The notes under the pieces were generated by a model, which was not told the origin of the DNA, ran no database searches, and was given only the letters and a program-made list of their open reading frames with translations. Positions 28,331 to 44,191 of a stretch of 64,000 nucleotides of DNA are shown one piece after another. This DNA is from Burkholderia cepacia ATCC 25416. GTDB taxonomy: Bacteria; Pseudomonadota; Gammaproteobacteria; Burkholderiales; Burkholderiaceae. The DNA lies in assembly GCF_001411495.1 (NCBI RefSeq), contig NZ_CP012982.1, forward strand, positions 1,736,001 to 1,800,000. Direction: 5' to 3'. Every line of letters starts with the position of its first letter. Within the stretch, counting starts at the first letter, position 1. Position numbers and translations under genes: made by a program.

Positions 28331-31114
28331 GTGAATATCCGAGAGTCGTTCCGCAATTTCATATCGGGAATCGATGCGAATCGCCGGCCGGTCGTGCTGA
28401 ATTGGGGTAAGGCGCAGCACGCGCTGGCATCACAGGTTGCGTTGCAGCACGCGAGCATCCATGAAAGCATGATGACCGGCATCAGCGGCTATCTGACCTG
28501 CATTTCGCAGCAGGGCGATCTGCCTCCGAAGCTTTTCATTGGTGCGCCGGTCTCAGTCGGTATCGTCACCGATCGCGGCCAACTGCGTGCCATCAACGCA
28601 ATCGTCAGCGCCGTGCAGATCGGCCGGACCGACGGAGAGCTGACGGTTTACCAGTTCACCGTGACCGACGCAGTGAACCTGCTGCAAAAGCGCACCAACT
28701 CTCGCATCTTCCGTAACGTCAGCGTTGTCGATGTGCTTGGAGTTGTCCTGAACGAATGGCGACAGCGTAGCGTGGCCCTCGCGCAGGCTTTCGAATTCGA
28801 TCTGTCTCAACTCGACAGGTCCCGCTACCCGAGTCGATCTTTCGTACGTCAGGTCAATGAATCTGATGCCCGTTTCATCTCCAGGATTGCGCGTCGCGAC
28901 GGCATCACGATGTTTGTGCGCGCCGGACGGGTGAGCGGTGAGACGAAAGACGGCGATCCTCCCGTGCATACGCTGGTGTTCTGCGACGACCCTCAGAAAC
29001 TGAACGAGTCCGCCGCGGGTACGGTGCGCGTCCATCCGCGAGACGCTGGAACGGAGCAGCGCGACACCATCACCGCTTTGACGATGCGCCAGCAACTGAT
29101 TTCGGGGGAATCGGGGCGACCTTCGTGGGACTACCGATATGCCCGTGTGGACCAGTCGAGCGCATCGACAAAGATCGATCAAGGCGAATCGGGCAACGAT
29201 CTCGCGAAATTGCTGACGGACATCGTGATCGACGTCCCGCATATGGCGGACTCCTGGGCGGACCACGAGCGGATGACGGAGGATCGCATTCTGGCTCATG
29301 AAGCGCAGGCGGTTCGATACGACGGCGTGAGCGGAATTCGCGACCTCGCAGTCGGCTCATGGATCACGATCGCCGGAGATGATGAGTGGGGCACGCTCCC
29401 GTCCGACAAGCAACAATTCGTGATCACGTCGCTGCACCACGAAGTCTGGAACAATCTGCCCAAGGGGTTGAACGAGCGTGCGCAGGCGCTGTTCGCGGCC
29501 AGCCATACGCTTCAACGGCCGCGAACGATGACCGACGGCGATCCGTCCGGGCAGGATACGCGCTACGAGAATACATTCTCGTGCGTGCCGCGCGGCACGC
29601 CGCTCACGCCGCTTTACGATCCCAAGACTGATCTTCCGCCGACGCCGCTGATTACCGGACGCGTAGTCGGGGTCGATGGAGAGGAAGTCAGTTGCGACGA
29701 GAATGGCTGCGTGTTCGTGCAGATTCTCGGTCAGGATTCTCGCGATCATGCGCATGCGCAGGGTGCCGGAACGAACAGCAACGAGAGCGACAGCGCACCG
29801 ATTCGCGTGGCATCCAGTCTGGCTGGGCCGAATTTCGGGGAGACTTTCTTGCCGCGGGTGGGCACCGAAGTTCTGCTCGGGAGCCTCGGCGGGGATCCGG
29901 ACCGGCTGGTCATCATCGGCGTGCTGGCAAACGGCGCGAACATGCCGGCGAGTTTCACTCATACGGGCAGTCTGCCGGGCAATCGCTTTCTTTCCGGTAT
30001 CAAGACGAAGGAAATCAAGGGGCAGCGCTACAACCAGCTTCGTCTCGACGACACGCCGCAGCAAATCAGCGCGCAGCTTGCATCGGAGCATGCGCATAGC
30101 CAGTTGAATCTCGGCTACCTGACTCAACCACGCGATAACGGACAGGGCGCAGACCGCGGCCAAGGCGCCGAATTGCGCACGGACGCGGCAGCCGCGCTGC
30201 GTGCGGCGCAAGGGATGCTTCTGACGACATACGCGCGTACACAGGCGAGCGGCGGACAGCTTGATCGCGATGAACTCGTCGAGTTGCTCGGCGAATGCGC
30301 GGAGCTGTTCAAGGCGTTGGGAGACTACGCCGGACAGCACGGCGGCACGGCGACCGATGCGACGGGACAGCAAGCTGTCGTGACCGCCTTCAAGGGATGG
30401 ACACCGGGTGGCCACGCTTCAGGCGACGATCGTGCATCGAACGCCGGCGCAGGCGACTCTCAGGCGCTGATGGCATTTGGCGCAAAGGCGGGGGCGCTCA
30501 ATATCACCCCGAAGACTTACGTGACCTACGCCGGCGAGAACATCGATCAGATCGCGCGGCAGAACCTGCAATTCGCTGGCGGTCAGCGCGTGATCACGAC
30601 GGCTGGCCAAGGCATCCACCTGTTCGGGCGCGGTGAAGGCGTCCGCGCGATTGCCGGCGAAGGTCCCGTTGTCTTGCAGGCGCAACAGGACACGCTTGCG
30701 GCGACTGCCCAGAAGGGAATACAGATCATGTCCGTTGGCGACGAGGTGTTGATCTCGGGCAAGTCGATTCGGCTCGTCGCGGAAGACGGAAGCTACGTGA
30801 AAATCGGTGGCGGCGTCGAGGTCGGTTCAGACGGTGCGTTCACTGCTCACACGGCGGGACATGATTTCGTCGGCCCGAACACGGACCACGTTGCGCCGCC
30901 GGCGTTCAATCGCGGCGGTGCCGATCAGAAGTTCCGCTTGCGGTACCCCGGTACCGACGGCGATGACGGTACGCATCCCGTACCGAACCGTCCATACAAG
31001 ATCACGTTGCGCAACGGCCAGGTCATTAATGGGGTGTCGGATGCACACGGGTTGACGGAGCTGGCATCCAGCGACGCGATGCACATCGCTCATATTCAGG
31101 TTTTCGACGTTTAA
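28331..31114 (+). CDS. vgrG: Type VI secretion spike protein VgrG
   Basis: A 927-residue VgrG. Residues 1 to about 430 correspond to the gp27-like base (FVRQVNESDARFISRIARRDG is the conserved Vgr element), about 440-560 to the gp5-like OB-fold region (GRVVGVDGEEVSCDENGCVF, PNFGETFLPRVGTEVLLGSL), then a spike/DUF2345 part with repeated beta elements (LQAQQDTLAATAQKGIQIMS). The C-terminus ends in RNGQVINGVSDAHG, a small beta domain seen in VgrGs that carry effectors. The start is GTG 28331. Immediately downstream are the lipase, adaptor and PAAR genes, so this spike is dedicated to that effector. No other type VI structural genes lie in the window. Confidence 0.93.
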   Translation: MNIRESFRNFISGIDANRRPVVLNWGKAQHALASQVALQHASIHESMMTGISGYLTCISQQGDLPPKLFIGAPVSVGIVTDRGQLRAINAIVSAVQIGRTDGELTVYQFTVTDAVNLLQKRTNSRIFRNVSVVDVLGVVLNEWRQRSVALAQAFEFDLSQLDRSRYPSRSFVRQVNESDARFISRIARRDGITMFVRAGRVSGETKDGDPPVHTLVFCDDPQKLNESAAGTVRVHPRDAGTEQRDTITALTMRQQLISGESGRPSWDYRYARVDQSSASTKIDQGESGNDLAKLLTDIVIDVPHMADSWADHERMTEDRILAHEAQAVRYDGVSGIRDLAVGSWITIAGDDEWGTLPSDKQQFVITSLHHEVWNNLPKGLNERAQALFAASHTLQRPRTMTDGDPSGQDTRYENTFSCVPRGTPLTPLYDPKTDLPPTPLITGRVVGVDGEEVSCDENGCVFVQILGQDSRDHAHAQGAGTNSNESDSAPIRVASSLAGPNFGETFLPRVGTEVLLGSLGGDPDRLVIIGVLANGANMPASFTHTGSLPGNRFLSGIKTKEIKGQRYNQLRLDDTPQQISAQLASEHAHSQLNLGYLTQPRDNGQGADRGQGAELRTDAAAALRAAQGMLLTTYARTQASGGQLDRDELVELLGECAELFKALGDYAGQHGGTATDATGQQAVVTAFKGWTPGGHASGDDRASNAGAGDSQALMAFGAKAGALNITPKTYVTYAGENIDQIARQNLQFAGGQRVITTAGQGIHLFGRGEGVRAIAGEGPVVLQAQQDTLAATAQKGIQIMSVGDEVLISGKSIRLVAEDGSYVKIGGGVEVGSDGAFTAHTAGHDFVGPNTDHVAPPAFNRGGADQKFRLRYPGTDGDDGTHPVPNRPYKITLRNGQVINGVSDAHGLTELASSDAMHIAHIQVFDV

Positions 31115-31125
31115 GGCAGGCGGTC

Positions 31126-33300
31126 ATGTCCGATACCACAACCTCGTCGCCCCGGATTGTTGGCGAACGCAAGGCGATTCTCAATTGCAACCGGCCGCAG
31201 GATGCGTGCGTCAATACCGACGTGCAAAATCGCTTTCCGTGCACGACGATCCTGATCCATGGTGTGAATGACCTCGGAACGGATTTCGGTACGGTCGAAG
31301 GCGGACTGTGCGAAGGATTGAACGACCGCCTCGGTCGTTCCGATTTCAAGGGCGCCGAGTACTCGCACGGCCGCATGGCGAACGACCCGAGCAAGGTGAG
31401 CGTTGCCGACATGATGAAGAACATGGACGATGTCATTTATCGTCGGCAGGAAAGCGAAGAGACAAAGAGTCCGTTGATTCCGTTTTATTGGGGGTTACGC
31501 GTCGGGAAGGAGGATTTGCCCCGAGACCCCAATAAGGAGACCGTCAACGGCCAGTACGTCGACCGGTTCGGCAACCGCCTTGATGAACACCGCGCGCGCA
31601 ACGGCGGATTCTTCGCCAATGCGACCAATAACATCCCCGACATGTTCGACTCGAATTTCAAAGGGGGAATGACGACGAAAATTCTCGACCGGATGCAGGG
31701 CGACCCGACGCACCCGCTTCGCGAAGCGGAAAATCGGCATTACATGGTGCTGGCAGCTCGGCGGCTCGCGGCATTGGTGCGGCAAATCCGCCTTGTCGAT
31801 CCGGACGGGACAGTCAACATCATTGCGCACAGTCAGGGCACGCTGATATCGCTGCTCGCCCAGGCCTATCTCGTCGAGGGGCTGATTCCAAACCAATGTG
31901 GCCCGGCCGACCGTCCTGCCGACACGCTGGTCCTGATCGACTCGCCCTACAGCTTGAGCGAGGAGTTCATGGATCGGTTGCTGCAACGCGGGGACCAGCA
32001 GCAGACGGCTTACGCGCGTGCAAAGACCCTGGCAAATCTGGCCGGGCATGTGGCGAACGGCAAATATCCGACGCCGCCGCTCGAACAATTGAAATACGAG
32101 CCAGGACGGGACAATTTTGGCATCGTCGGCCCAACCTGGGATCCCGCGCAGGCGACGCGCCTGAGCGGGTTGCAAGGCAACGAATGCGTCGTGTTCGCCG
32201 AGCGCGACAATCGCGGCAAAGTGTATATGTACTTCAGCCCGGAGGATGCGACCGTCGGCCTGCGCGGCGTCAATGGCATGGGGTGCTCGGGCTTGCCCGA
32301 CTCAATCGATGTGCGTGCGGCGCAGCGGGGAAGCAAGCTCGAGAAAATTAATCTGCTGTCGGCGGCTTTCCGGCAGCGTGTTTTTACCCGGCGTCTGCGG
32401 CAGGGCAAGCCGGTTCAGGTTGGTACGCCGCCCGGGAACTTTACGGTGCGGGAAAAGGGCGAAACATCCCATGGCTTGCCCGGCGGCTTCACGACATGGG
32501 TGAAATCGACGCAGATAGACGTCGGCACCGAGCGCAATATCAATGGCGAAGCATTGACGCCACCGTTCGATCCCGAAATGGAAGGCAATGTGCTGCCTGG
32601 AACGGAGGCAACGCCGCTCTCGGAAAAAAATACCGGCGAGTATGCGCCCGGCAAACAAGCCATTGACCAGCTCGAAGCGGAAATTGCCCTGAGCACGAAC
32701 AGTGGCGAAGGTGCGTTGCAGCCGTTGCCTGCACAAATCATCGACTGGCCAACGAGCGAGGATGGGACGTTGCCGACCTCCGCTGAGGTGGAGGCGTCGT
32801 TGAACGCGGGCAAGGATCCCGACGATCAGTGCAAGGTCGGCCGGGTCGTGTCGACGGTACCGCCGTCGCCCGGGCACATCGTCGTTTATCGTCAGGAGAC
32901 GCTCAACGAAGCCAAGGTTCGGCTGATGAATGAACATCGGGGAGAAAGTTCATATCACTCGGCGGTCATGAGCGGTCGTAGAAATCACCGCTGTGCGACC
33001 GCATTCGATGTGTCGGTAGGCCAAGCGCGTGCGCTCGACGATCCGGACTGGGCAAAACTCCTGCGGGCTATTGCTGATTGGAGACTTCCGGAGAGCGATA
33101 TAGTAAAAGCCGAGAGAAAACTCGGCAAAAAGCTCGACTCCGTAACGTCCGACATAGTAAAAGCCAATTGCAGCTATTACGAAAGCGGAGTTTTCCCGGA
33201 AGACGATATCGTGCCGAAGGATTTTCCTGAAGGTGTGGTCAGTGAAACCAGGAAAGATCGAAATAGTGAAGTTGTAAAAGAAGCACGATCGGTACATTGA
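31126..33300 (+). CDS. tle3: Type VI lipase effector, Tle3-like (DUF3274 type)
   Basis: A 724-residue alpha/beta-hydrolase effector. The oxyanion region is TTILIHGVNDLGTDF near residue 45, and the nucleophile elbow is IIAHSQGTLIS with Ser near residue 236. Tle3 proteins are phospholipases injected into rival bacteria; in Pseudomonas aeruginosa Tle3 is loaded on VgrG2b by the adaptor Tla3. The gene starts 11 bases after vgrG and is followed by a Tla3-like gene. There is no signal peptide, as expected. The last 80 residues are lysine-rich with a repeated SDIVKA element and visibly lower GC, which may be a variable toxin tail. Confidence 0.85.
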   Translation: MSDTTTSSPRIVGERKAILNCNRPQDACVNTDVQNRFPCTTILIHGVNDLGTDFGTVEGGLCEGLNDRLGRSDFKGAEYSHGRMANDPSKVSVADMMKNMDDVIYRRQESEETKSPLIPFYWGLRVGKEDLPRDPNKETVNGQYVDRFGNRLDEHRARNGGFFANATNNIPDMFDSNFKGGMTTKILDRMQGDPTHPLREAENRHYMVLAARRLAALVRQIRLVDPDGTVNIIAHSQGTLISLLAQAYLVEGLIPNQCGPADRPADTLVLIDSPYSLSEEFMDRLLQRGDQQQTAYARAKTLANLAGHVANGKYPTPPLEQLKYEPGRDNFGIVGPTWDPAQATRLSGLQGNECVVFAERDNRGKVYMYFSPEDATVGLRGVNGMGCSGLPDSIDVRAAQRGSKLEKINLLSAAFRQRVFTRRLRQGKPVQVGTPPGNFTVREKGETSHGLPGGFTTWVKSTQIDVGTERNINGEALTPPFDPEMEGNVLPGTEATPLSEKNTGEYAPGKQAIDQLEAEIALSTNSGEGALQPLPAQIIDWPTSEDGTLPTSAEVEASLNAGKDPDDQCKVGRVVSTVPPSPGHIVVYRQETLNEAKVRLMNEHRGESSYHSAVMSGRRNHRCATAFDVSVGQARALDDPDWAKLLRAIADWRLPESDIVKAERKLGKKLDSVTSDIVKANCSYYESGVFPEDDIVPKDFPEGVVSETRKDRNSEVVKEARSVH

Positions 33301-33314
33301 AAAATTGACGCGCC

Positions 33315-34934
33315 ATGATTACGACAAACGTCACACGACCACCGGCTGCACGAATATTTCTGCTTTCACTCGCAATCCTGACTCTCTTGTGGATTGCAGT
33401 CGTCGAATTTGTTGTTGGAAGGGAGGGGTTCTTGGGAGGAAATATTGCAATGTATCGACGCTTGTCGCTGTTGATCTTGCCGCCGCTGTTGTTGGCGGCA
33501 GGCGTCAGTATCGCCTATGGCGCCTCGTTGCGTAGAGACTCGCCGCCTCGAGACACGCCGGCGGCCGCTCGTCCATCCAGCGCAAACGAAGCTGTCGTTG
33601 CCGGGGACGGGTCCAGGGATGCGCGGTTCACGTTGGAAATACGCCGTTTTGGCGTCGCCGTTGACCGGTTTCGCCAGCGTGCGCTATTGATGCGGCTGGA
33701 CGAGGCAGGGGGCAGCGGAACGTTGCTCCTGCAGGATCCCAAACAATATCCGTGGTCGAGTAGCGATCGAAGCTTTGCGGGACATAAGCGCGAGAACAAC
33801 GTCTTCGGCTATACGTTGCGCGGATGGGTCGATTATTGGCCGATTCCCGTGATAGTGGCCGGGCCGCCGCGAAACGAGAGTGATCCGGATGCGGACCGGA
33901 TGGCAACCCACATCAGTAGTGCGGATAACGGGGCGGGGATTGGTAATACCCTTTATACGAGACTCGATGAAATACATACTGCGCACGGGGACGAGGTAGT
34001 CTCTAGAGTATTTGATATCTTTGACCGCGAGCCGGACTTGCCGGCAGTGGTATTGCTGGTTGAGGATGGAATCAATACGCGATCCTATTTGGGCACTCCG
34101 GGCGCCGATTACCTGGGTTTGTCCACAAAAGATGGAAACTTCGTACCAAAGAATCCTGACAGTTACGTTGCGTTGCTGGTGACGAGAAAGGACCGAGTCG
34201 ACCGACTGATTCGTCCATATGTGGTGGACGCACCGGAGGCAATCGACAACAGCCAGACCCAATATGACGTGATCAAGCTGTGGAATTATTTCTGGCAGCT
34301 TCAGAAAGCCCACTGGAAGAAGGGTGAAAAGGAGATGCCGGTGGATTATTGGCAGGCGAAGCTCCCCGAGTTCTGGAAGACTGCGTCGTTGAAGATGCCG
34401 GACGGCTTCAAGCCGAACCCGTGGGTGCCGATTCCCTGGACCACGTGGCAGTTGAAGGAGTATGACAAATGGCCGGTTCTGGCCAATCTGCATCGGCCGG
34501 TGCGAGTCGATCTGAGCAACGGGCACGGGGCGCCGTTGAAGAAGGGCGAGCGAATCGAAAAGATCCGCGCCGGCTGGCAGCAGGCTGTGGGTGCGCTTGC
34601 GCCCGGCGAGCAGCCGGGACGCATGTTCTACGATACTGGCGCCTCGACCGCCAATCTCGCGTTGCTGGTGCAGTCGCTGCACGACAACCCGCAGCATGTC
34701 GATATTGACGATCCGAAAGACGCCTTCGACATGCAGCGCCGTATCGGCGGCGACACCGGAACGAGCTCGATCTGGGTCCAGACCGCGCTGGCGCTGATGA
34801 TGGGTTATGGCGACGGGAAGACGAGCGCACTGATCAACCTGCGGGATCCGCTGCATGCCACGATCGTCATGCTGACGCCGCCGGACGCCGCGTCGCGGCA
34901 GGCGCATCCGCAGACGTTCAGCTGGGATTTCTGA
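33315..34934 (+). CDS. tla3: Type VI lipase adaptor, Tla3-like (DUF2875 type)
   Basis: A 539-residue protein with two N-terminal membrane segments (about 13-34 and 48-68) followed by a large soluble domain. The conserved blocks GYTLRGWVDYWPIPVI, PIPWTTWQLKEYDKWPVLANLHRP and the closing LRDPLHATIVMLTPPD suit the adaptor family that escorts Tle3 lipase to its VgrG. The start at ATG 33315 is 14 bases after the effector. GC content is visibly lower in its first half. Family membership is from recalled domain organisation and gene order; an immunity role is a less likely alternative. Confidence 0.8.
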   Translation: MITTNVTRPPAARIFLLSLAILTLLWIAVVEFVVGREGFLGGNIAMYRRLSLLILPPLLLAAGVSIAYGASLRRDSPPRDTPAAARPSSANEAVVAGDGSRDARFTLEIRRFGVAVDRFRQRALLMRLDEAGGSGTLLLQDPKQYPWSSSDRSFAGHKRENNVFGYTLRGWVDYWPIPVIVAGPPRNESDPDADRMATHISSADNGAGIGNTLYTRLDEIHTAHGDEVVSRVFDIFDREPDLPAVVLLVEDGINTRSYLGTPGADYLGLSTKDGNFVPKNPDSYVALLVTRKDRVDRLIRPYVVDAPEAIDNSQTQYDVIKLWNYFWQLQKAHWKKGEKEMPVDYWQAKLPEFWKTASLKMPDGFKPNPWVPIPWTTWQLKEYDKWPVLANLHRPVRVDLSNGHGAPLKKGERIEKIRAGWQQAVGALAPGEQPGRMFYDTGASTANLALLVQSLHDNPQHVDIDDPKDAFDMQRRIGGDTGTSSIWVQTALALMMGYGDGKTSALINLRDPLHATIVMLTPPDAASRQAHPQTFSWDF

Positions 34935-34953
34935 CGGACCGGATCGACACGTC

Positions 34954-35214
34954 ATGGGTCAAAAGCGATACATCATCGAAGGCGATGTGCACAGCCACGG
35001 CGGACGCGTTGTGTCCGGGGCGCCGAACTCGCGAATCAACGGGCGTGCGATTGCACGCTTGCACGATCCCGCGATTTGCGAGATTCACGGCCTGACCTTC
35101 ATTGCGACGGTGTCGGGCCACGCCCGGTTCGACGGGCAAGTTGCCGCCTGCGATGGCGACTTGCTGGCATGCGGAGCACGCCTGATCGCGAGCCAGGATC
35201 AGACCGGCGGCTGA
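34954..35214 (+). CDS. PAAR-domain spike-tip protein
   Basis: An 86-residue PAAR protein that sharpens the VgrG spike. It shows the glycine/histidine-rich repeat layout (GDVHSHGGRVVSGAPNSRIN, ARLHDPAICEIHG, ACDGDLLACGARLIASQD) with His and Cys residues that bind the apical zinc. It follows the adaptor by 19 bases and closes the module vgrG-tle3-tla3-PAAR. Confidence 0.88.
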   Translation: MGQKRYIIEGDVHSHGGRVVSGAPNSRINGRAIARLHDPAICEIHGLTFIATVSGHARFDGQVAACDGDLLACGARLIASQDQTGG

Positions 35215-35285: not shown

Positions 35286-36407
35286 TCAGATCACGAATTC
35301 CATCGGCTTCGTGCCGCATTGCTCATCGGGCAACGGCTCGCCACGCTGCGCCGCGGCCAACAACCGGCCGATCGCAATGTGGACCACATCGGCGCGCACG
35401 CTCGACGGGGTGAAGCCTGCAGCGTTGTCGAGTCCCTCCCGGTGCGCACGCATGATTCGCACGTCTTGCTGGATCACGGAATGCGTGTAGAGGTGCAGCA
35501 GCGGTTTCAGCGCGCGCAGCACCGCGGCCGGCAAGGCAAAGCGATAGGCGATGTACGTATAGACACGCGATCGACGCGTGTCGAGCGGCGTGATCTGGCT
35601 GATGATCAGAAAACTCGAGCGGCTGCCCCAGTGATAGTCGCACCGCGTGACGTTCGGTGCATAAAAATGATCGGTATGTCGAAGCGGTTCCCTGGACGGA
35701 TTGGTCAGCCAGTCCAGCATGCCGATCTTGTCGCCGTCATCGTGATACGTGACCTCGACGCTCTGCTGCTTGAGTTCGACGGATGCCCGTAGTCGCCGTC
35801 CAGTGGATGAGCGGAAGATCCGGTCGTGCACGAACACCGTATGCGGGACGTCCATGAAGTTCTCGACCAGCGCACCGAGGTCGCCATCGAACGTATTGAC
35901 CATGTAGTACGACTGCCACGGCCGTTCGCCGTAGTGCGGCATGTCGAACGGCCGCTTCAGCGCTGGATCGTCTCGCCCGCGATAGACCCAGACGAGGCCG
36001 TGCCGAGTCAGCACCGGTAACCTGCGCTGGCGATACGGGTAGGTCGTACCTGGCGGCGCGGCGCTCGCGCCGTCGATGCTGGGGATTCGGGTCACGCTGC
36101 CGTGCTGGTCATAATGCCAGCCGTGATACGGACAGACGAGGCAGCCGTCGATGACCTTCCCGGCCGACAACCGGGTTCCGCGATGCACACATTGATCGAC
36201 GAGCGCGACGATCTCGCCGCCGGCCGCCCGGAACAACACGATGCCGAGGCCGAGTACCCGCGTGCCGAACGGCTTGTCGCGCTTGACGTCGGCTTCGGTG
36301 CCCGCGACGTACCATTGCTCGACCAGCGCGCCGAAGGCTTCGCCATCGGCGTCCGGCACGGATTCGTCGCACGGGGGATGCGTCGATGCGATCGATATGT
36401 TCAACAT
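35286..36407 (-). CDS. Rieske [2Fe-2S] non-heme iron oxygenase, alpha subunit-like
   Basis: A 373-residue aromatic-ring-hydroxylating-dioxygenase family protein. The Rieske cluster is bound by Cys73-x-His75 (CVHRG) and Cys92-x2-His95 (CPYHGWH). The catalytic domain has ALVENFMDVPHTVFVHD at about 178-196, with the Asp/His residues expected around the mononuclear iron. Such enzymes hydroxylate, desaturate or demethylate. No ferredoxin or reductase gene is nearby, so electrons must come from elsewhere. ATG 36407 overlaps the GH3 stop by 7 bases, so it is translated together with it; both belong to the lipid-like island. Confidence 0.87.
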   Translation of the reverse strand: MLNISIASTHPPCDESVPDADGEAFGALVEQWYVAGTEADVKRDKPFGTRVLGLGIVLFRAAGGEIVALVDQCVHRGTRLSAGKVIDGCLVCPYHGWHYDQHGSVTRIPSIDGASAAPPGTTYPYRQRRLPVLTRHGLVWVYRGRDDPALKRPFDMPHYGERPWQSYYMVNTFDGDLGALVENFMDVPHTVFVHDRIFRSSTGRRLRASVELKQQSVEVTYHDDGDKIGMLDWLTNPSREPLRHTDHFYAPNVTRCDYHWGSRSSFLIISQITPLDTRRSRVYTYIAYRFALPAAVLRALKPLLHLYTHSVIQQDVRIMRAHREGLDNAAGFTPSSVRADVVHIAIGRLLAAAQRGEPLPDEQCGTKPMEFVI

Positions 36408-37987
36408 GAGCACGTGTCCTCGATGAAGGCGCGGAGTGCGTTCGCCACGGCGGGCTTGGCCACCAGTGCGCGGGGTTTGACATCGCCAGCCCGGATGCCT
36501 GCGCGCTCGTGGGCTCGCTGGACGAGATCCGCCAGCTGGGCGGCGCCCCCGGGCACGCGAACCGCGCGCAACGGGCCAAGCTGGCCGACCGTGCGTGCGT
36601 GCCGGTAGTGAAAAGCGCGGACGAGAGCCTGTTCCAGCGCATCGCGCAAGGCGGCGACGTCCTGCGTACCGCTGGCAAGCAACAGCAGGTAGTGGGGCGG
36701 ATCCGCGTCTGCGCACGGAATCACGCAACCTTCGTCACCCGGTTGCAGCACGTCGGAAAGCGACGCAGCCAGATAGGCTTCGTCCAGCTTTTCACCGACC
36801 AGATCGCTTTGCGTGCCAGCCCGCCCGACGAAGGTCACGCATGGCGTTCGTCCCGCATATCCGGTCACACGGACCCGATCGCCGAGCCGATAGCGGTACA
36901 GGCCGCCTCCGGTCGTCACGACGACCTCGACCGTATCGCCCGGCTTCAGTTCCTCCACGCCAATCGCGGTTCCGTCGTCGAGCAGAAACTCCAGGAAGTG
37001 GCTGCAGACGGCGAGGGGACAGCCGGTCGTATCGCCGAACGGCAGGCTGACCACCGCCTCGGTGGAAAACAAGCCTTTCGGAAGCCATGCCGCCTGCGGA
37101 AACAAGGTGCGGGCATGTGCGGCGTAGCCTTTGCTTGGACCGTCCATCCAGCAACTCACTGCCGCGAGCTGCGGCCACAGCCGGCCGCAGTGGCCGTCGT
37201 CGAGTGCGCGTCGCAGCGCTGCCATACGGCTCGACGGTAGCGAATCGAACAGGAAGGTGAGCGTATCGCGGCGCTGCGGTTCGGCGTGGTCGAACAGCGG
37301 ACGAAGCAGACTGGTCAAGAAGGTCGGGCTCCATATGCTGATGAAGGCCAGATCGTCGGCGGAGATAATCGCGCGTAACGTTTCGTTGCGCCACGCCCGA
37401 TCATTACCCGACAGTGACGGGGCGACGAGTGTCGGCAGTAGATCGACGAGCGGGCTGCCGGCCAGGTAATCGAGATCGCTGTCCGATCCGATCATGATGC
37501 CGTTGGGAGCGCGTTCGCGCGCTTGCATTGGAGGCGACATCGACCAGTACGCGCGTCCGGCCGCGACGCCGGGCACGGTGCGATGCAGATCGGAGAGCCA
37601 GACGATCAGCGCGAACTGCAATTCTTCGAGAAAGGCTGGCGTATAGGGAATGAGCTTTTGCTGCTCGCTGCCGCCGCTCGTGCGCTCGAAGAAGCGTGGC
37701 GCCTGGTCGGTCAGGATCGGAGCGGACTCCTCGAGGGCACGATCGATCCATCGGGACATGCCGGCGTAGGAGGTTGCCGGCACGCGTTCGCGAAATTGGG
37801 CCGGATCCGCGATATCGGCAAACCCGTTGGCCATGCCGAACGCCGTGTTCCGATTCGTGGCGAGCAGGCGTGACAGAAAGGTTGCCTGCGCGTCGCCCGG
37901 CGCATCGAGCGCGGTGAGCCATGCGCGACGGAAAGGTTCTGCAGCAGCGCTAAACGCGGCCCACGCATCTTGTGCACGCACGTGCAT
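36401..37987 (-). CDS. GH3-family acyl acid-amido synthetase-like protein
   Basis: A 528-residue member of the GH3 adenylate-forming family, best known from plants, where it joins auxin or jasmonate to amino acids through an acyl-AMP. The phosphate-binding motif appears as RTSGGSEQQKLIPYT near residue 106, and GGGLYRYRLGDRVRVTGY with TFVGRAGTQSDLVGEKLDE supply the family's C-terminal nucleotide and hinge motifs. Bacterial GH3 proteins occur in natural-product clusters. With two desaturases, a Rieske oxygenase and acyltransferase-like genes it probably activates a fatty acid or other carboxylic acid and couples it to an amine. The start at 37987 is an ATG with a weak upstream signal. Confidence 0.85.
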   Translation of the reverse strand: MHVRAQDAWAAFSAAAEPFRRAWLTALDAPGDAQATFLSRLLATNRNTAFGMANGFADIADPAQFRERVPATSYAGMSRWIDRALEESAPILTDQAPRFFERTSGGSEQQKLIPYTPAFLEELQFALIVWLSDLHRTVPGVAAGRAYWSMSPPMQARERAPNGIMIGSDSDLDYLAGSPLVDLLPTLVAPSLSGNDRAWRNETLRAIISADDLAFISIWSPTFLTSLLRPLFDHAEPQRRDTLTFLFDSLPSSRMAALRRALDDGHCGRLWPQLAAVSCWMDGPSKGYAAHARTLFPQAAWLPKGLFSTEAVVSLPFGDTTGCPLAVCSHFLEFLLDDGTAIGVEELKPGDTVEVVVTTGGGLYRYRLGDRVRVTGYAGRTPCVTFVGRAGTQSDLVGEKLDEAYLAASLSDVLQPGDEGCVIPCADADPPHYLLLLASGTQDVAALRDALEQALVRAFHYRHARTVGQLGPLRAVRVPGGAAQLADLVQRAHERAGIRAGDVKPRALVAKPAVANALRAFIEDTCSC

Positions 37988-37994
37988 CCTCTCG

Positions 37995-38930
37995 TCAGAA
38001 ATAGGTTTTTTCGAGCTGTGTCAGATCGCTGGGCAAGCGCCGGGGCGCATCGAACACATGCAGCCAACCGTACCACAGCGGTCGCGTCTCCGCCGCGTCG
38101 GAGCGTGCATGAAGCTCCTGCCAGCGCAGGCTCGGATGCCGGTGATGCGTCAGGTTGTAGTTGAAGTTGAGGAATGCCCAGCGGATCAGTGTGGGGGCAC
38201 GCATGTTGTATGTGCCCTCGACAACGTCGAGCGGCGTGTGCATGTGATACACCCATTGGAGCGACGACCACGAAAACGCGAATGCGAGATAGGCAAGCGC
38301 GATATCGAGCACGCGCCAGTCCAGCAATGCGCCCAGTGCGATCCACGCGGCCACGCCTGCGAGGGTTTCGTATCGAATTCGCCGAAATTCAGCTTGGTCG
38401 AAGTCTTTGAACGCAGCCGCATACGTGTTGTCGCGTCCGTACTTCGCCCAGCCATACGGGACGCGACTCGGAAGCACGGCGAGGACGAAGCTGCCCGCGA
38501 AACTCGCGAACCAGATGCCGCCGACGATCGCCGCGTAGTATTCGATTCGCTTGCGCCACAGCGAAGCGTCCGGCTCGACGAAGTCCACCCGCTCCGCGAG
38601 CGTTCGATTCCGCACGTGGTGACCGAGATGATTCACGTGGATCAGCGTTGCGGCCGCGCCGAACATCGCCGATGCCCACCACATCATCAGGTAGTTGACT
38701 GCCCCGCGCCGATGCCCGAAACCGTGGAAAGTTTCGTGCATCATCGAAAACACACCTTGCATGATCAGGCAGAACGGTACGAGCGACGCCCAGCGCAAGG
38801 GGCTCGTACCGTGCGACAGCCACGTCAGGATGCCGGCCCATGCAACGCTCTGCAGCGCGAGCACGCAGAGATTCAGCCGATCGAACCGTCGCGAACATTT
38901 ATCTATGGCGCTTGCATTGGCAACGAACAT
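37995..38930 (-). CDS. Fatty acid desaturase-like membrane oxygenase
   Basis: A 311-residue integral membrane di-iron protein of the fatty acid desaturase/hydroxylase family. The three histidine boxes are HETFHGFGH, HVNHLGHH and a C-terminal HHRH in NLTHHRHPSLRW, placed among hydrophobic segments. I use ATG 38930; an upstream TTG at 38993 would add 21 charged, unlikely residues. It ends 7 bases before the GH3 gene and heads the transcript desaturase-GH3-Rieske. It is divergent from the PF10118-type gene with a 113-bp space. Whether it desaturates, hydroxylates or makes a triple bond cannot be read. Confidence 0.85.
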   Translation of the reverse strand: MFVANASAIDKCSRRFDRLNLCVLALQSVAWAGILTWLSHGTSPLRWASLVPFCLIMQGVFSMMHETFHGFGHRRGAVNYLMMWWASAMFGAAATLIHVNHLGHHVRNRTLAERVDFVEPDASLWRKRIEYYAAIVGGIWFASFAGSFVLAVLPSRVPYGWAKYGRDNTYAAAFKDFDQAEFRRIRYETLAGVAAWIALGALLDWRVLDIALAYLAFAFSWSSLQWVYHMHTPLDVVEGTYNMRAPTLIRWAFLNFNYNLTHHRHPSLRWQELHARSDAAETRPLWYGWLHVFDAPRRLPSDLTQLEKTYF

Positions 38931-39043
38931 ACAATTCGGACATGGATGGTGGCGGCGACGCAGAGCATACCTTCGATCGCCATCATCGAACAATACGCCC
39001 GCCTGCGCTGATCTTGCGCGTTACGCCACGATCGATCGCGACC

Positions 39044-39928
39044 ATGTCCGCCAAACGAACCGACGATTCCATGCATGAGCGCTGCAACGACGCGGCAGAC
39101 ATCCGTCGGCGCAATCCGCGTTTTTGTTTTGCCGACCACATTCCGCGCTATTGGTATCGTGACAAACGCCTCGTGACGCGCTTTTTCGACGCGTTCTCGA
39201 TCATGTTTCCGCTCGGCGAGAAGTTCTTTGTCGATAGCGTGAGGCAGTACCGCGACGCGCTGCCGGTCGATGGCACACTCGCCGCTCAAGTGGATGCTTT
39301 CCTGTACCAGGAAGCCGCTCACATCCGCGAGCATCGCGCGTATAACCGGCGCCTGGCTCGCCAGGGCATGCCGGTCGACGCACTCGAGGCGCTCATGCGG
39401 AGACGGCAGCAACAATGCCGGCGTGTCGCGTCGCCGCTGCTTCAATTGACCTTCACGGCATGTCTCGAGCACTACACGGCTATTCTGGCCGATCTGCTGT
39501 TGCGCGATCCGGCCATTCTTGACGGCGTCGACCCGTCGATGGCCGCGATCTGGCGATGGCATGCGATCGAGGAAACCGAACACAAGGCCGTCGCGTTCGA
39601 CGTATTTCGCGCTTGCGGCGGCGGCGCGATCAAGCGCTATTTCATACGGACGGCGGCGATGCTCGGCGTCACGGCATGCTTCATCGTCGATCTGGGCTAT
39701 TTCATCGTGCGTCTCGCGCGTGCCGACCGCGGCGCCGGCAATTGGCGAAGCTGGGCACAGCTTGGCTGGTGGCTGTTCGGCGCGCCGGGCATCGTTACCC
39801 GCGTGCTGCCCGCGTGGCTGGTATGGTTCTCGCCGCGTTTTCACCCTGCGCGAATCGGGAATCCGGCCACCCTGGCTGCTGCCCGTGCGGCACTCGCTGC
39901 CGACGGCGTGACAACGGAACCGGCATGA
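39044..39928 (+). CDS. PF10118-type predicted metal-dependent hydrolase / di-iron protein
   Basis: A 294-residue mostly helical protein. Its helices carry Glu/His pairs suited to a di-metal site: FLYQEAAHIREH (about 83-94), FTACLEHYTAIL and WRWHAIEETEHKAVAFDVF. This arrangement matches the family annotated as predicted metal-dependent hydrolases, which look ferritin-like; an oxygenase role is equally possible. A hydrophobic region follows (MLGVTACFIVDLGYFIVRL), so it may be membrane-attached. ATG 39044 is used; ATG 39071 is an alternative. The stop overlaps the next gene as ATGA. Confidence 0.78.
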   Translation: MSAKRTDDSMHERCNDAADIRRRNPRFCFADHIPRYWYRDKRLVTRFFDAFSIMFPLGEKFFVDSVRQYRDALPVDGTLAAQVDAFLYQEAAHIREHRAYNRRLARQGMPVDALEALMRRRQQQCRRVASPLLQLTFTACLEHYTAILADLLLRDPAILDGVDPSMAAIWRWHAIEETEHKAVAFDVFRACGGGAIKRYFIRTAAMLGVTACFIVDLGYFIVRLARADRGAGNWRSWAQLGWWLFGAPGIVTRVLPAWLVWFSPRFHPARIGNPATLAAARAALAADGVTTEPA

Positions 39929-40845
39929 GCGCACGGCGTCCGGCATGGTCGCCGTCCGGCTTCGACGAGTGGCGGCAACACTACCCATCGACGCCGTTCG
40001 AACCGGCGCCCGCAGCAATCGACTGGACCGGGCACTTCATCGAATGTTGGCATGCGCATGGCGCCCGCGCATTCCCGGACACCGTCGTCGTGTTGATTGC
40101 GGGACTCTATTCCGAGTGGATACCTGCCTGCTTCCGGCATGCCGTGCGGGCGTTGCATGCCGCGCGCTACCCAATCCTGCGTGTGCCGGTCCGCTCGTCT
40201 CGCGCGGTTGCCGAGCAGGGCGCGCATATCGTGCGCTACCTGTATGCGCGCCTGCCTGCTGATCGCCGCTTTATTGTCCTCACCCATAGCAAGGGCGGGC
40301 TCGATGCACTGGCGGCGCTGCATGCGGATTCAGGGCTTCGCGCTCGCTGCGACGGTATCGCACTCGTGCAGCCGCCCGTCGGCCCGAGCGCGATCGTCGA
40401 CGGCCTGCTCGGGCAACGGGGGGCGCGCATCGATCCCGCATGGTTGGGTCGAGCCGCCGGGAGATTGTTGCGCACACGCTGGCTCCATGCAGGCTCGCGC
40501 GATATCGGCAGCGAGCGCGACGCCGGCATCGCGAATCTGTTGTCTGCGGTGCCCGGTGGCCTGCACTGTGTGCATGTCGTGAGCTGGTCGATAGAACGCA
40601 CGTCCCGGTTCGACGCACATCACTCGCGCCTCGACCGCTACCGTCCCGGTTGTGCGCATGACGGACAGTTCTACCTGGACCACCAGACGATTCGCGGCAT
40701 GCCTCAAGTATGCGTGCCGCATCTCGACCATGGCCAGCCTGTACTCGGCGGCGCCGGTTTCGATGCGGGACGTTTCTGGCTTGCACTCGTTGCGCTCCTG
40801 AACGACACGCGAGCGGCAGCGGTCGCGAGCGGTCAGACGAGATAG
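39925..40845 (+). CDS. Alpha/beta hydrolase-like protein
   Basis: A 306-residue alpha/beta-hydrolase-like protein. After TVVVLIAGLYSEW (first strand and oxyanion loop) comes a nucleophile elbow FIVLTHSKGGLDALAAL, with Ser in the context H-S-K-G-G, then a later His region VPHLDHGQPVLGGAGFD. It could be an esterase, thioesterase or acyltransferase. Its ATG overlaps the PF10118-type gene stop, so the two are co-translated, and its last 13 bases overlap the convergent acyltransferase-like gene. No signal peptide is seen. Confidence 0.78.
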   Translation: MSARRPAWSPSGFDEWRQHYPSTPFEPAPAAIDWTGHFIECWHAHGARAFPDTVVVLIAGLYSEWIPACFRHAVRALHAARYPILRVPVRSSRAVAEQGAHIVRYLYARLPADRRFIVLTHSKGGLDALAALHADSGLRARCDGIALVQPPVGPSAIVDGLLGQRGARIDPAWLGRAAGRLLRTRWLHAGSRDIGSERDAGIANLLSAVPGGLHCVHVVSWSIERTSRFDAHHSRLDRYRPGCAHDGQFYLDHQTIRGMPQVCVPHLDHGQPVLGGAGFDAGRFWLALVALLNDTRAAAVASGQTR

Positions 40846-41951
40846 ATCTCGAATCCCGGGATCGCTTCGGTGCCGCCCGGATCGAGTGCGGTCGCGCCGG
40901 GCGTCGATAGCGTATACAGATCCATCGGCAGCGCGGTGTATCGATAGCCGCGCAACGCGGACCATAGCGGATCGTGATCGTACAGGCAAAGCTGCAGCAA
41001 CGCATAGCGGCTCCGCTCTCGTTGCCAGACTGCATCGAGCAGCGCCTGTGCGATGTCCGGGTCGCGTCCGCTCACATGCAGATGAGTCAGGTAGATGTCC
41101 TGAAGCGGCTGGCCGGGTGCTGCGATGGGAGGGCGTCCGAGCAACGGCGCGACGGCGTTGACGCCGTGACGCAACGCACCGAGTGAGCGCGGCAGACGTT
41201 CCAGGACGATGCGCTTGATACGTCCCGCATCCCACGGAGCAACGCAGCCCACGATACGCCCCTGCGCGTTGCGTGCGACCAGAAAGCGCTCGATTCCGAA
41301 GTCGGGCCAGGCGTTCAGGCGGCGCGTGAATTCGTCCGCTGTAAAGACGCAGCCGAAGGGTTGGGAACGCGACTCCTGGTCCAGGAATGCGCGGAGCGCG
41401 TCGGCATCGGTGGCCGACGCGTTCGTGATCCTGACGGAGTCGGCGCGCCGCGCAGCAATACGTCGCGCATAGATCGATACGTTACTGTAGCCGCGCCAAT
41501 GTCGAAATCCGAGCCGGGTCCGCTTGCCTGTCCTGAATAGCGATTGCGTTGCGATCCGGTTGTCGCGAATGACGCAGCAGTACGTATGCTGCACATCTTC
41601 GTGCCGGGCGAGATCAGCGAGGCGATCGACGACATAATCGACCCACGTGCGTGCCAGTTCGCGATCGGGTGCGATGCGCAAGTCGCCGAGGTAAGCGATG
41701 CGCTGTTTCTCTCCGGCGAGGTAGCCGTCGCGAACGACCATGCTGGCCATTCCCTTGACGTGCCCGGCGCTGTCCTCCGCGAGCCAGGTTCGATAGTCGT
41801 TCGAATGGCACCGATGCAGTGCGAAGTAATCCGGTGAGCGATCGAAGCGAAGCGGCATCCCGCCGAGCATCGCGTAACGTGTTTGAAACGCGAGAAGCCG
41901 TTCGTTGTCGGACGCTGTGGCTGGCCGGATCCGCGTCATTGGCTCATTCAC
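40833..41951 (-). CDS. GNAT-like acyltransferase, possibly two-domain
   Basis: A 372-residue protein with an N-terminal GNAT-like region (TRIRPATASDNERLLAFQTR, AGHVKGMASMVVRDGYL, IAYLGDLRIAPDREL) and a second acetyltransferase-like half (VRITNASATDADALRAFLDQ). No catalytic residues can be named and the donor may be acetyl-, acyl-CoA or acyl-ACP. The start may be GTG 41951, overlapping the preceding gene stop, or ATG 41939. It is convergent with the hydrolase gene and overlaps it by 13 bases. In this island it may N-acylate an amine made upstream. Confidence 0.65.
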   Translation of the reverse strand: MNEPMTRIRPATASDNERLLAFQTRYAMLGGMPLRFDRSPDYFALHRCHSNDYRTWLAEDSAGHVKGMASMVVRDGYLAGEKQRIAYLGDLRIAPDRELARTWVDYVVDRLADLARHEDVQHTYCCVIRDNRIATQSLFRTGKRTRLGFRHWRGYSNVSIYARRIAARRADSVRITNASATDADALRAFLDQESRSQPFGCVFTADEFTRRLNAWPDFGIERFLVARNAQGRIVGCVAPWDAGRIKRIVLERLPRSLGALRHGVNAVAPLLGRPPIAAPGQPLQDIYLTHLHVSGRDPDIAQALLDAVWQRERSRYALLQLCLYDHDPLWSALRGYRYTALPMDLYTLSTPGATALDPGGTEAIPGFEIYLV

Positions 41952-42669
41952 CGGCGAAGATTCGTCTTGCCATCGGGCGCAGGTTTTCCGGCTTCAGCTC
42001 ACACAGGCAGACGAGCTCGTTTCCGTGCGCGTATTCTGGATTGCGCTCCAGAAAATAGGCGACATCCGGCAGCCGCCGATGCGCGTCAGGCACTTCGGCG
42101 AGGGCCGGGGCGAGGCGGCCTTGCGGTACAGGAAAATTGAGCACGCCGGACGCGGCGTCGTATGCGTGCCCGAAGCGCTCGACAGCCAGATGATCGAGCA
42201 GTGCCTGAATCGAGGGCTCGGTCGGTCGGTCGAATCGCGGGGTGAAATCATGCGCGAACGCTCGCAAGTAGCGGTACGTGCGATGCCCTTTGCAGATCAG
42301 AAACCAGTATAGTGCCAGGTCAGGCGAGTTGCGTTTGAGCTCACCGGCGAGTCGAATCCAGCAAAACGCGAGTTGCTGGCTGCCCCAGCAGGCCGGATCC
42401 ACGATCGTGTCGCCGGAAAACAGGATGCGCAGTGTGGTGTCGCACCACTGCTGTTCATACAGTTTCAACGTGGAGAAGCCGCGCAGCTTGCCGGTGTCAT
42501 CGCGCATGATGACGCAATGTGTCTTGTCGTCGAGATCGTGTTCGAAGCGTGCCTGTTCCGTATCCCGGTAACAGGCCGAATAGAGCGCGTACATGTGTGC
42601 AACGTCGACGTCGCGCAGCTGCGCACGTGTCATGGAACTGGCTCGAAGCGGCATAGCGTCGTCATTCAT
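41944..42669 (-). CDS. Putative acyltransferase-like protein (GNAT-related), function unknown
   Basis: A 241-residue cytoplasmic protein. The central part (VIMRDDTGKLRGFSTLKLYEQ, then LRILFSGDTIVDPACWGSQQ) has the beta-bulge and substrate-loop look of GNAT-related acyltransferases, but no acyl-CoA motif is clear, so assignment is tentative. It precedes the two-domain acyltransferase-like gene, with stop/start overlap at 41944-41951, and its ATG at 42669 abuts the divergent PAP2-desaturase gene. Confidence 0.55.
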   Translation of the reverse strand: MNDDAMPLRASSMTRAQLRDVDVAHMYALYSACYRDTEQARFEHDLDDKTHCVIMRDDTGKLRGFSTLKLYEQQWCDTTLRILFSGDTIVDPACWGSQQLAFCWIRLAGELKRNSPDLALYWFLICKGHRTYRYLRAFAHDFTPRFDRPTEPSIQALLDHLAVERFGHAYDAASGVLNFPVPQGRLAPALAEVPDAHRRLPDVAYFLERNPEYAHGNELVCLCELKPENLRPMARRIFAGE

Positions 42670-42721
42670 GCGAGCTGAAACGATTTATCATGATACGCGA
42701 TTGAGCCGCTCCTTTTTTCAC

Positions 42722-44191
42722 ATGCGCGCCATACCTTCTGTTTCCCTCTCCTATATACCGTCAGCATTCGACGCGTGGCGGTGGCTCGCAATCTATGTCG
42801 TCGCGTCGGGCGCACTCTACTTCTGGGTCACACACGCGCCGATGGCGCCCGTGGTGGTGCTGCGTCCGGGGCCGTACGATGCGGTCATTCCGCGAGTGTC
42901 CGCCAGTGTGCCGCTTTATTTGAGTTACGCGCTCGTGATGCCGTCGATTGTCTGGTTCGGCCGAGGCCGCAATTGGCTGCTGCCCGCGTTTTTCGCCGGT
43001 GCGCTTGCCGCAGGCCTGTGCATCGTCAGTCATCTGTTCTGGCCGACTGCCGTGAGCCGGTCGCCGGCTGTGTCGGGATGGATCGCATGGCTGTATCGGA
43101 TCGACACGCCACTCGCCGCGAGTCCATGCGGGCATGTTGCGTTGCCTGTGGCGGTAACCGTGGTATTGGCTGCGCTACGTGTCCGCGCAGCGCGCTATTA
43201 CGCTGCGTGGAGCGCAATACTGGCGCTCACGGTCTTGACGACCGGGCAGCATCTGCTCGCGGACATGCTCGCGGGGCTCGCACTCGGCGTCGGCGTCGGC
43301 GGTGCGACGACCGCGCTCATTCGTCTCGACGTTGACCTGCGTACGGCTGCGGCATTGCTGCTTGAATGGCTATGTATCGTCGTTACGCTGCGAGTTGCGT
43401 TATCGGTGGGGCATTGGGGCGGTTACCTCTTCGCCGCTGTCATTGTCGCGACCCGGCAACACGCGTTATTCATTCTGTATCACGACGCGACACACTATCA
43501 TTTGACCCGCCGTCGTTTCGCGAACGATTTTCTGATCAACCTGGCAATCGGCGTACCGGGACTCGTGCCCATCGAATTCTATCGCCCGCTGCATCTTGCA
43601 CACCATCGACACGTCGGGACTGCGGACGATCCTGAGCGGAACTATCTGTACCACGCGCAGCCATGGAAATTCGAGCCACTCGACACACTCCCGCTCGTCC
43701 GGCAACTGCTCGGTGACTTGTTCGTGGTCAACATGGTGAAAAACATGCGCGCATACCGGCGCGCGAACGGGCGTGGTGCGTCCATGTCACTGCCGCTGCT
43801 CGCTGCGATATCGACATGGGGCATCCTGCTCGTGCCGCTCGTGCATGCATGCACGGTACGCGAACTGTTGACGCTGGCGGCGCTTTGGTTCGTGCCTCTC
43901 GTGACAATTGGCGCGCTGGTGCAGAAGATTCGTAGCATTGCAGAGCACAGTGGCGGGCCGGGTGTCACGGCCGGCTGGAATGACTGGACTTATTCGTGGC
44001 GTGTCGGGTTACTGGGCCGCTTCTTTATTTGGCCGTACAACATCAACTATCACCAACAGCATCATCGCGAACCCGGCGTGGCGTGGCATCGCTTGCCCGG
44101 ATTGCGTGCGTCCGACGAGCCGGTTCTGTCTTCGAGGCAATTGCTTGCATTGCTTTGGTCGGGTGCCTCGCGCCGTGGTAGTCAAAGATAG
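42722..44191 (+). CDS. PAP2-like phosphatase / fatty acid desaturase fusion
   Basis: A 489-residue membrane protein joining two enzyme types. Residues about 20-195 look like a PAP2 lipid phosphatase: SPCGHVALP near 134-142 corresponds to the PSGH motif and TTGQHLLADMLAG near 173-185 to the SR-H-D motif, with the usual Ser replaced by Cys and the Arg missing. Residues about 230-470 are a desaturase with boxes HDATHYH (254-260), HLAHHRH (291-297) and HQQHH. ATG 42722 is chosen; ATG 42668 is in frame but would overlap the divergent gene start. The fusion suggests action on a phospholipid or lipid phosphate and its acyl chain. Confidence 0.82.
   Translation: MRAIPSVSLSYIPSAFDAWRWLAIYVVASGALYFWVTHAPMAPVVVLRPGPYDAVIPRVSASVPLYLSYALVMPSIVWFGRGRNWLLPAFFAGALAAGLCIVSHLFWPTAVSRSPAVSGWIAWLYRIDTPLAASPCGHVALPVAVTVVLAALRVRAARYYAAWSAILALTVLTTGQHLLADMLAGLALGVGVGGATTALIRLDVDLRTAAALLLEWLCIVVTLRVALSVGHWGGYLFAAVIVATRQHALFILYHDATHYHLTRRRFANDFLINLAIGVPGLVPIEFYRPLHLAHHRHVGTADDPERNYLYHAQPWKFEPLDTLPLVRQLLGDLFVVNMVKNMRAYRRANGRGASMSLPLLAAISTWGILLVPLVHACTVRELLTLAALWFVPLVTIGALVQKIRSIAEHSGGPGVTAGWNDWTYSWRVGLLGRFFIWPYNINYHQQHHREPGVAWHRLPGLRASDEPVLSSRQLLALLWSGASRRGSQR

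Follow-up and report, generated by a model that had tools for sequence, protein, structure and literature searches.

A conserved GNAT2-GH3 core in an eight-gene cluster of Burkholderia cepacia ATCC 25416, a candidate pathway for oxidised amide lipids

What could a bacterium make with a Rieske oxygenase, a GH3-family ligase, two desaturases, a di-iron protein, an alpha/beta-hydrolase and two acyltransferase-like proteins encoded side by side? This combination was found in Burkholderia cepacia ATCC 25416, whose 8.6-Mb genome lies in four contigs, within a stretch of 64,000 nucleotides (NZ_CP012982.1, positions 1,736,001 to 1,800,000; hereafter the window), where the eight genes A to H occupy positions 35286-44191. 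They were confirmed to be contiguous and to form the four tight transcripts described in a first-pass annotation, with C-B-A on the minus strand, D-E on the plus strand, G-F on the minus strand and H on the plus strand. The set is probably one biosynthetic unit for a predicted oxidised, N-acylated lipid or lipid-like metabolite, thus an amide-lipid pathway, and gene G (GNAT2) together with gene B (GH3) is the core of the cluster.

That these families belong together, as had been proposed from the window, is borne out by other genomes, in which they do recur together. The GH3 query matched 15 of 61 genomes, its own included, and fourteen loci were opened. All eight genes, in identical order and orientation, were present in 10 of these 14; the other four were a locus from another family of the order (L026), with Rieske, GNAT2, GH3 and F genes, and three loci with a distant GH3 only. 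When a species-level collection was scanned with GNAT2, 416 relatives were confirmed. The locus counts rest on 80 of them: GH3 was present in 60 loci, a Rieske gene in 57, F in 45, E in 28 and D in 19. The complete set was observed in 19 of these 80, belonging to Burkholderia, Cupriavidus basilensis and Pseudomonas, while three Paraburkholderia loci and a Robbsia locus kept seven genes without D. In the genus survey one GNAT2 each was found in 15 of 65 genomes, own included, with identities of 85-100% in six and of 60-63% in nine. Among 299 Pseudomonadota genomes drawn (GNAT2 cut-off E 1e-10 or better, 1.5 kb examined on each side) six carried GNAT2, one being the window's, and GH3 was adjacent to GNAT2 in all five others. 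GNAT2 and GH3 thus make up a conserved pair, which the eight-gene set extends into a larger form that is itself stable.

The GH3-family adenylating amide ligase, gene B (36401..37987, minus strand), matched GH3 PF03321 (113.3 bits) and GH3_M (56.3), with GH3_C below cut-off (22.0 vs 23.6 bits). It contains the motifs TSGGSEQQK, FSTE and GLYRYRLGD, and T103, G105, K111, T309, E310, G362, L363, R365, Y366, D370 and K504 were invariant in six diverse rows, so that a GH3 ligase with the key residues of three nucleotide-binding motifs and the late lysine intact is predicted. Its partner and the marker of the cluster, gene G (GNAT2; 41944..42669, minus strand), had no significant Pfam family, and fold searches with its predicted model (predicted local distance difference test score, pLDDT, 95.5) placed it as a GNAT fold. 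Gene F (40833..41951, minus strand) had no match to the N-myristoyltransferase (NMT) families of Pfam, its sole match at a threshold of E up to 1 being a weak GNAT domain (PF00583, 18.5 bits vs cut-off 20.7); its model (pLDDT 90.8) was placed as a tandem GNAT fold with an NMT-like overall architecture. Both F and G are thus GNAT folds as modelled. The tandem GNAT fold is shared by F with N-myristoyltransferase and tandem GNATs (MAB_4324), but the identity is just 8-13%.

The remaining genes would encode oxidation enzymes and a hydrolase. Gene A (35286..36407, minus strand), a Rieske non-haem iron oxygenase of VanA_C type, matched Rieske PF00355 (78.7 bits) and VanA_C (41.6), with C73, H75, C92 and H95 and N183-x2-D186-x2-H189-x4-H194 as ligands; the CxH/CxxH ligands and NxxDxxHxxxxH were each lost in at most one of 27 rows. 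Gene C (37995..38930, minus strand; a TTG start at 38993 is possible) is a membrane fatty-acid desaturase/hydroxylase with three His boxes (FA_desaturase, 73.7 bits). Gene D (39044..39928, plus strand) is a PF10118 di-iron protein (Metal_hydrol, 274.2 bits) in which E90/H93, E142/H143 and E176/H180 are kept. Gene E (39925..40845, plus strand) had no Pfam match, and its profile found carboxyl esterase MGS0156 (5d8m, E 5.4e-15) among PDB sequences, in agreement with an alpha/beta-hydrolase carrying a HSKGG nucleophile elbow (S122) and H269. Gene H (42668..44191, plus strand; the start may be 42722) joins an N-terminal PAP2-type domain (H156, H195, D199; weak PAP2, 21.3 bits vs cut-off 27.2) to a three-His-box desaturase (FA_desaturase, 101.5 bits). 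Across 27 clusters (23 for D), at most one row departed at any of the iron-ligand, His-box, GH3-motif and nucleophile residues. The family calls of the first-pass annotation (Rieske, GH3, desaturases, PF10118, hydrolase and two acyltransferase-like proteins) therefore stood, except that H is a PAP2-desaturase fusion instead of a desaturase alone.

From these assignments a pathway could be drawn. Judging by fold, GNAT2 and the NMT-like F may move an acyl group from acyl-coenzyme A (acyl-CoA) or an acyl-carrier onto an amine. Enzymes of the GH3 family activate an acid by adenylation and convert it to an amide; here GH3 would adenylate a carboxylic acid, either a fatty acid or the carboxyl of an N-acyl amino acid, and couple it to an amine with no need for CoA. 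Oxidation or desaturation of the chain at the membrane would, by family, then fall to the two desaturases, the PF10118 di-iron protein and the Rieske enzyme. The hydrolase could trim or move an acyl group, and the PAP2 domain of H might remove or transfer a phospho head group. The order of the steps, the substrates and the product are those that we infer.

Is such a pathway already known? In Singulisphaera the GH3 enzyme OlsH uses ATP to join a free fatty acid to ornithine, with neither CoA nor acyl carrier protein (ACP) involved, and the resulting N-acyl ornithine is O-acylated by the alpha/beta-hydrolase OlsI (PMC12493201). At the family level the two systems have in common that a single locus encodes both a GH3 ligase and an alpha/beta-hydrolase, and the same CoA- and ACP-free amide formation is expected for the window GH3. 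The differences are these: the window GH3 scored 39.2 bits vs the OlsH family cut-off of 620, an equivalog cut-off, and was rejected as an OlsH; an OlsG-type N-methyltransferase belongs to the operon of Singulisphaera acidiphila and none is among the eight genes; and the window cluster has six further enzymes, two GNATs and two desaturases being among them. The genome also encodes a strong match to the OlsB family (PF13444), so ornithine lipid need not come from the cluster. Plant GH3 acyl acid amido synthetases (JAR1, GH3.12, GH3.15) are of the same family by profile, GH3.15 being best (E 1.1e-32), with three motif positions in common, but the sequences are distant and substrates could not be read across. 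The AFC-BC11 lipopeptide cluster of the Burkholderia cepacia complex is similar in genus, acyl amide and several desaturase/dehydrogenase genes. It uses a fatty acyl-AMP ligase, an adenylation protein, a carrier protein and a KAS-III-like transferase, with no GH3 named in the accessible part of its description, and none of the carrier, adenylation or ligase/transferase domains given there is among the eight genes (PMC12186527).

In searches of the literature, with subscription papers mostly outside their reach, no description of this gene set was found among the papers listed, in which OlsH/OlsI was the only bacterial GH3 lipid pathway and OlsH the one bacterial GH3 enzyme of published function. 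The suggestion that the pathway is undescribed may thus hold for the gene set but fails for the general idea of GH3-dependent lipid synthesis, which is not new because OlsH/OlsI synthesis of N-acyl amino-acid lipids has been published (PMC12493201). The cluster is best read as related in logic to the OlsH/OlsI pathway (published 2025), not as a member of it. What appears to be new is the combination of genes, GNAT2 as the partner of GH3, and the exchange of oxidation enzymes. The GNAT2 and GH3 core would offer a testable second bacterial GH3 system besides OlsH, one that its partner gene makes recognisable.

Genome mining commonly relies on signatures of polyketide synthases, nonribosomal peptide synthetases (NRPS), terpenes or ribosomally synthesized and post-translationally modified peptides. 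The cluster carries none of the polyketide synthase or NRPS domains among them: the domain scan of the eight genes and eight neighbours found no ACP, ketosynthase or NRPS domain, in line with the first-pass annotation. Given 416 stretches with confirmed GNAT2 relatives, an entire group of lipid amides may still await study.

The oxidation enzymes differ around the core, being Rieske, desaturase and di-iron enzymes here and B12 radical-SAM enzymes elsewhere. In Zhengella (L097) the order was GNAT2, GH3, two B12 radical-SAM genes, F, two more B12 radical-SAM genes, a 225-aa gene without Pfam match and an AurF-like gene. On a plasmid of Citrobacter portucalensis it was GNAT2, GH3, two radical-SAM genes, F, two radical-SAM genes and PAP2, with a radical-SAM and a desaturase gene facing them, and by clustering the B12 radical-SAM family was present in 13 loci, this one included. 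The plasmid (NZ_CP134684.1) is of IncFIB/IncFII type and is predicted by PLSDB to be mobilizable. Tahibacter, Chitinimonas, Accumulibacter and some metagenome-assembled genomes showed changing combinations around the core, drawn from one to three Rieske genes, ferredoxin, fatty-acid hydroxylase, PAP2 and amidohydrolase, together with a 394-aa family with a sub-threshold AurF match. Since B12 radical-SAM enzymes surround the same core in other lineages, the core scaffold is probably kept while the tailoring varies, and the exchange of oxygen-dependent for radical-SAM tailoring around one core could make the oxidation carried out by each module testable.

The activating enzyme also seems swappable. 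In L061 GH3 was absent from the stretch examined, and a P450 and an AMP-binding ligase precede GNAT2, as if this ligase took the place of GH3; by clustering its family was also in L063, L068 and L069. A long FG-GAP/ASPIC-UnbV protein recurs near the core in L065, L074, L078, L081, L083, L111 and L026, with an RnfD-like membrane part seen by Pfam in the L078 member. Behind the GH3-dependent acyl-amide cluster there is possibly a broader class. With some reserve, we suggest that the GNAT2-GH3 pair could mark an unrecognised, widespread class of amide-lipid pathways that work without a carrier, occurring in Pseudomonadota as well as in some genomes of cyanobacteria and Elusimicrobia, and having a fixed condensing core and interchangeable oxidation modules (oxygen-dependent Rieske/desaturase/di-iron or B12 radical-SAM by lineage), and that the products, perhaps ceramide-like amides, could be an unseen lipid or signal class.

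Could the genes instead serve to break something down? A catabolic or detoxifying island, in which a host or environmental lipid (sterol, alkaloid or sphingolipid-like) is broken down or conjugated and the GH3 and GNATs tag the compound, would suit gene A, which resembles O- and N-demethylases: its nearest solved sequences are dicamba O-demethylase, SxtDIOX and SxtT, and its best NCBIfam match is 4beta-methylsterol monooxygenase (82.4 bits vs cut-off 600). The patchy presence of GNAT2 in the genus is likewise that of accessory traits. However, two GNATs and an amide ligase make bonds rather than break them, no beta-oxidation or ring-cleavage genes are among the eight, and amidohydrolase genes were seen in some variants only. 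The core is moreover coupled with efflux genes in an Acinetobacter baumannii record (L031, 6536-13900), where HlyD-like, MFS, GNAT2, GH3, OEP and F genes are consecutive; OEP is a domain match, while the HlyD and MFS labels were read off the sequence only. Here the core is at its smallest, GNAT2-GH3-F, and an outer-membrane efflux gene separates GH3 from F; the exporter genes suggest a small, exportable product. A catabolic role is therefore unlikely, and the biosynthetic unit is preferred.

A sphingolipid-like pathway, in which the long chain of an amide lipid undergoes desaturation or hydroxylation and a PAP2 transferase sets its head group, as with ceramide, desaturase and inositol-phosphorylceramide synthase, is an improbable reading. 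In the PAP2 superfamily, phosphatases have an arginine immediately ahead of the last histidine that sphingolipid transferases lack. The PAP2 domains of the window and of most variant rows aligned keep His-His-Asp without this arginine, therefore a transferase role is possible. The stand-alone PAP2 proteins of two variants match PAP2_3, one of them weakly matches phosphoinositol dihydroceramide synthase (24.5 bits vs cut-off 480), and a fatty-acid hydroxylase family is present in variants. But the window's own PAP2 match is weak, with no PAP2_3 match, the variant gene of the Zhengella locus has no PAP2 motif in the same alignment, and neither serine palmitoyltransferase nor another long-chain-base gene was among the proteins scanned.

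The left neighbour of the cluster is a type VI secretion module (28331-35214) of VgrG, Tle3 lipase, Tla3 adaptor and PAAR (34954-35214), in which VgrG and Tle3 adjoin with no gene between. The same vgrG-tle3-tla3-PAAR module borders the Rieske end in five Burkholderia loci, the window counted. It lies at the H end in two loci of Paraburkholderia and in three of Pseudomonas, and in the latter three vgrG and tle3 have two unidentified genes between them. In B. metallica just the tail of tla3 remains (98 residues), and at the Robbsia H end there are vgrG, another lipase and Tli4. The module is a recurrent neighbourhood of the cluster, not a proven link. Tle3 was found in 46 of 65 genus genomes (0-5 matches each), and the module with no gene between was also observed in two of 18 cluster-free Tle3 loci (L122, L131), so the cluster is not needed as a substitute for an immunity gene. 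That an altered lipid shields the producer from its own phospholipase, or travels with the effector, is improbable: the module or, in Robbsia, a related one does recur beside the cluster, and the Burkholderia, Paraburkholderia and Pseudomonas cases fall in separate tree groups, but it was not seen in the stretches examined of the clade-B Burkholderia loci fetched, six other Pseudomonas and two Cupriavidus, Tle3 is common in the genus, and vgrG islands may simply be insertion hot spots. The right flank of the cluster holds AlkB-like and Ada/AlkA-like genes.

How was the cluster inherited? The dN/dS values against two relatives were 0.09-0.26 across the eight genes, giving purifying selection on each. 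Pairwise distances of seven core proteins correlate (r 0.936-0.979, 27 clusters), a value which relatedness alone raises, and fit joint inheritance as expected. In a quick concatenated tree the Burkholderia clusters fell in two groups: the second sits with Paraburkholderia and Robbsia (support 100), and the window's group stands apart, with one long outgroup branch and an uncertain deepest fork. The pattern points to separate acquisition, or to an old duplication followed by loss.

Two local differences were observed among relatives. In Burkholderia paludis (L042, 6380-9979) a second PF10118 match (62%) at ~6.4 kb shares one long open frame with the place of gene H, as if an extra di-iron domain were carried on H. 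In L021-L025, L032, L038-L041, L043-L046, L066 and L067 the Rieske gene is flanked by another desaturase-like gene (25-28% to H), which neither the window nor its close relatives nor the Pseudomonas loci possess.

The genes of the window cluster are closely packed. A and B overlap at 36401-36407, B and C are separated by a 7-bp gap, D and E overlap at 39925-39928, and F and G at 41944-41951. E and F are convergent with ends overlapping by 13 bp (40833-40845), G and H are divergent with starts close or overlapping, and C and D diverge across a 113-bp gap (38931..39043), which could serve both genes as a promoter region or, should 38993 be the start of C, be coding. Over its first ~65 bases this gap is nearly identical by eye in five clade loci, despite differences of up to 40% or more at synonymous sites among the same five members. 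By this inspection, the conserved part looks like an operator common to both genes, or else reflects a start of gene C further upstream.
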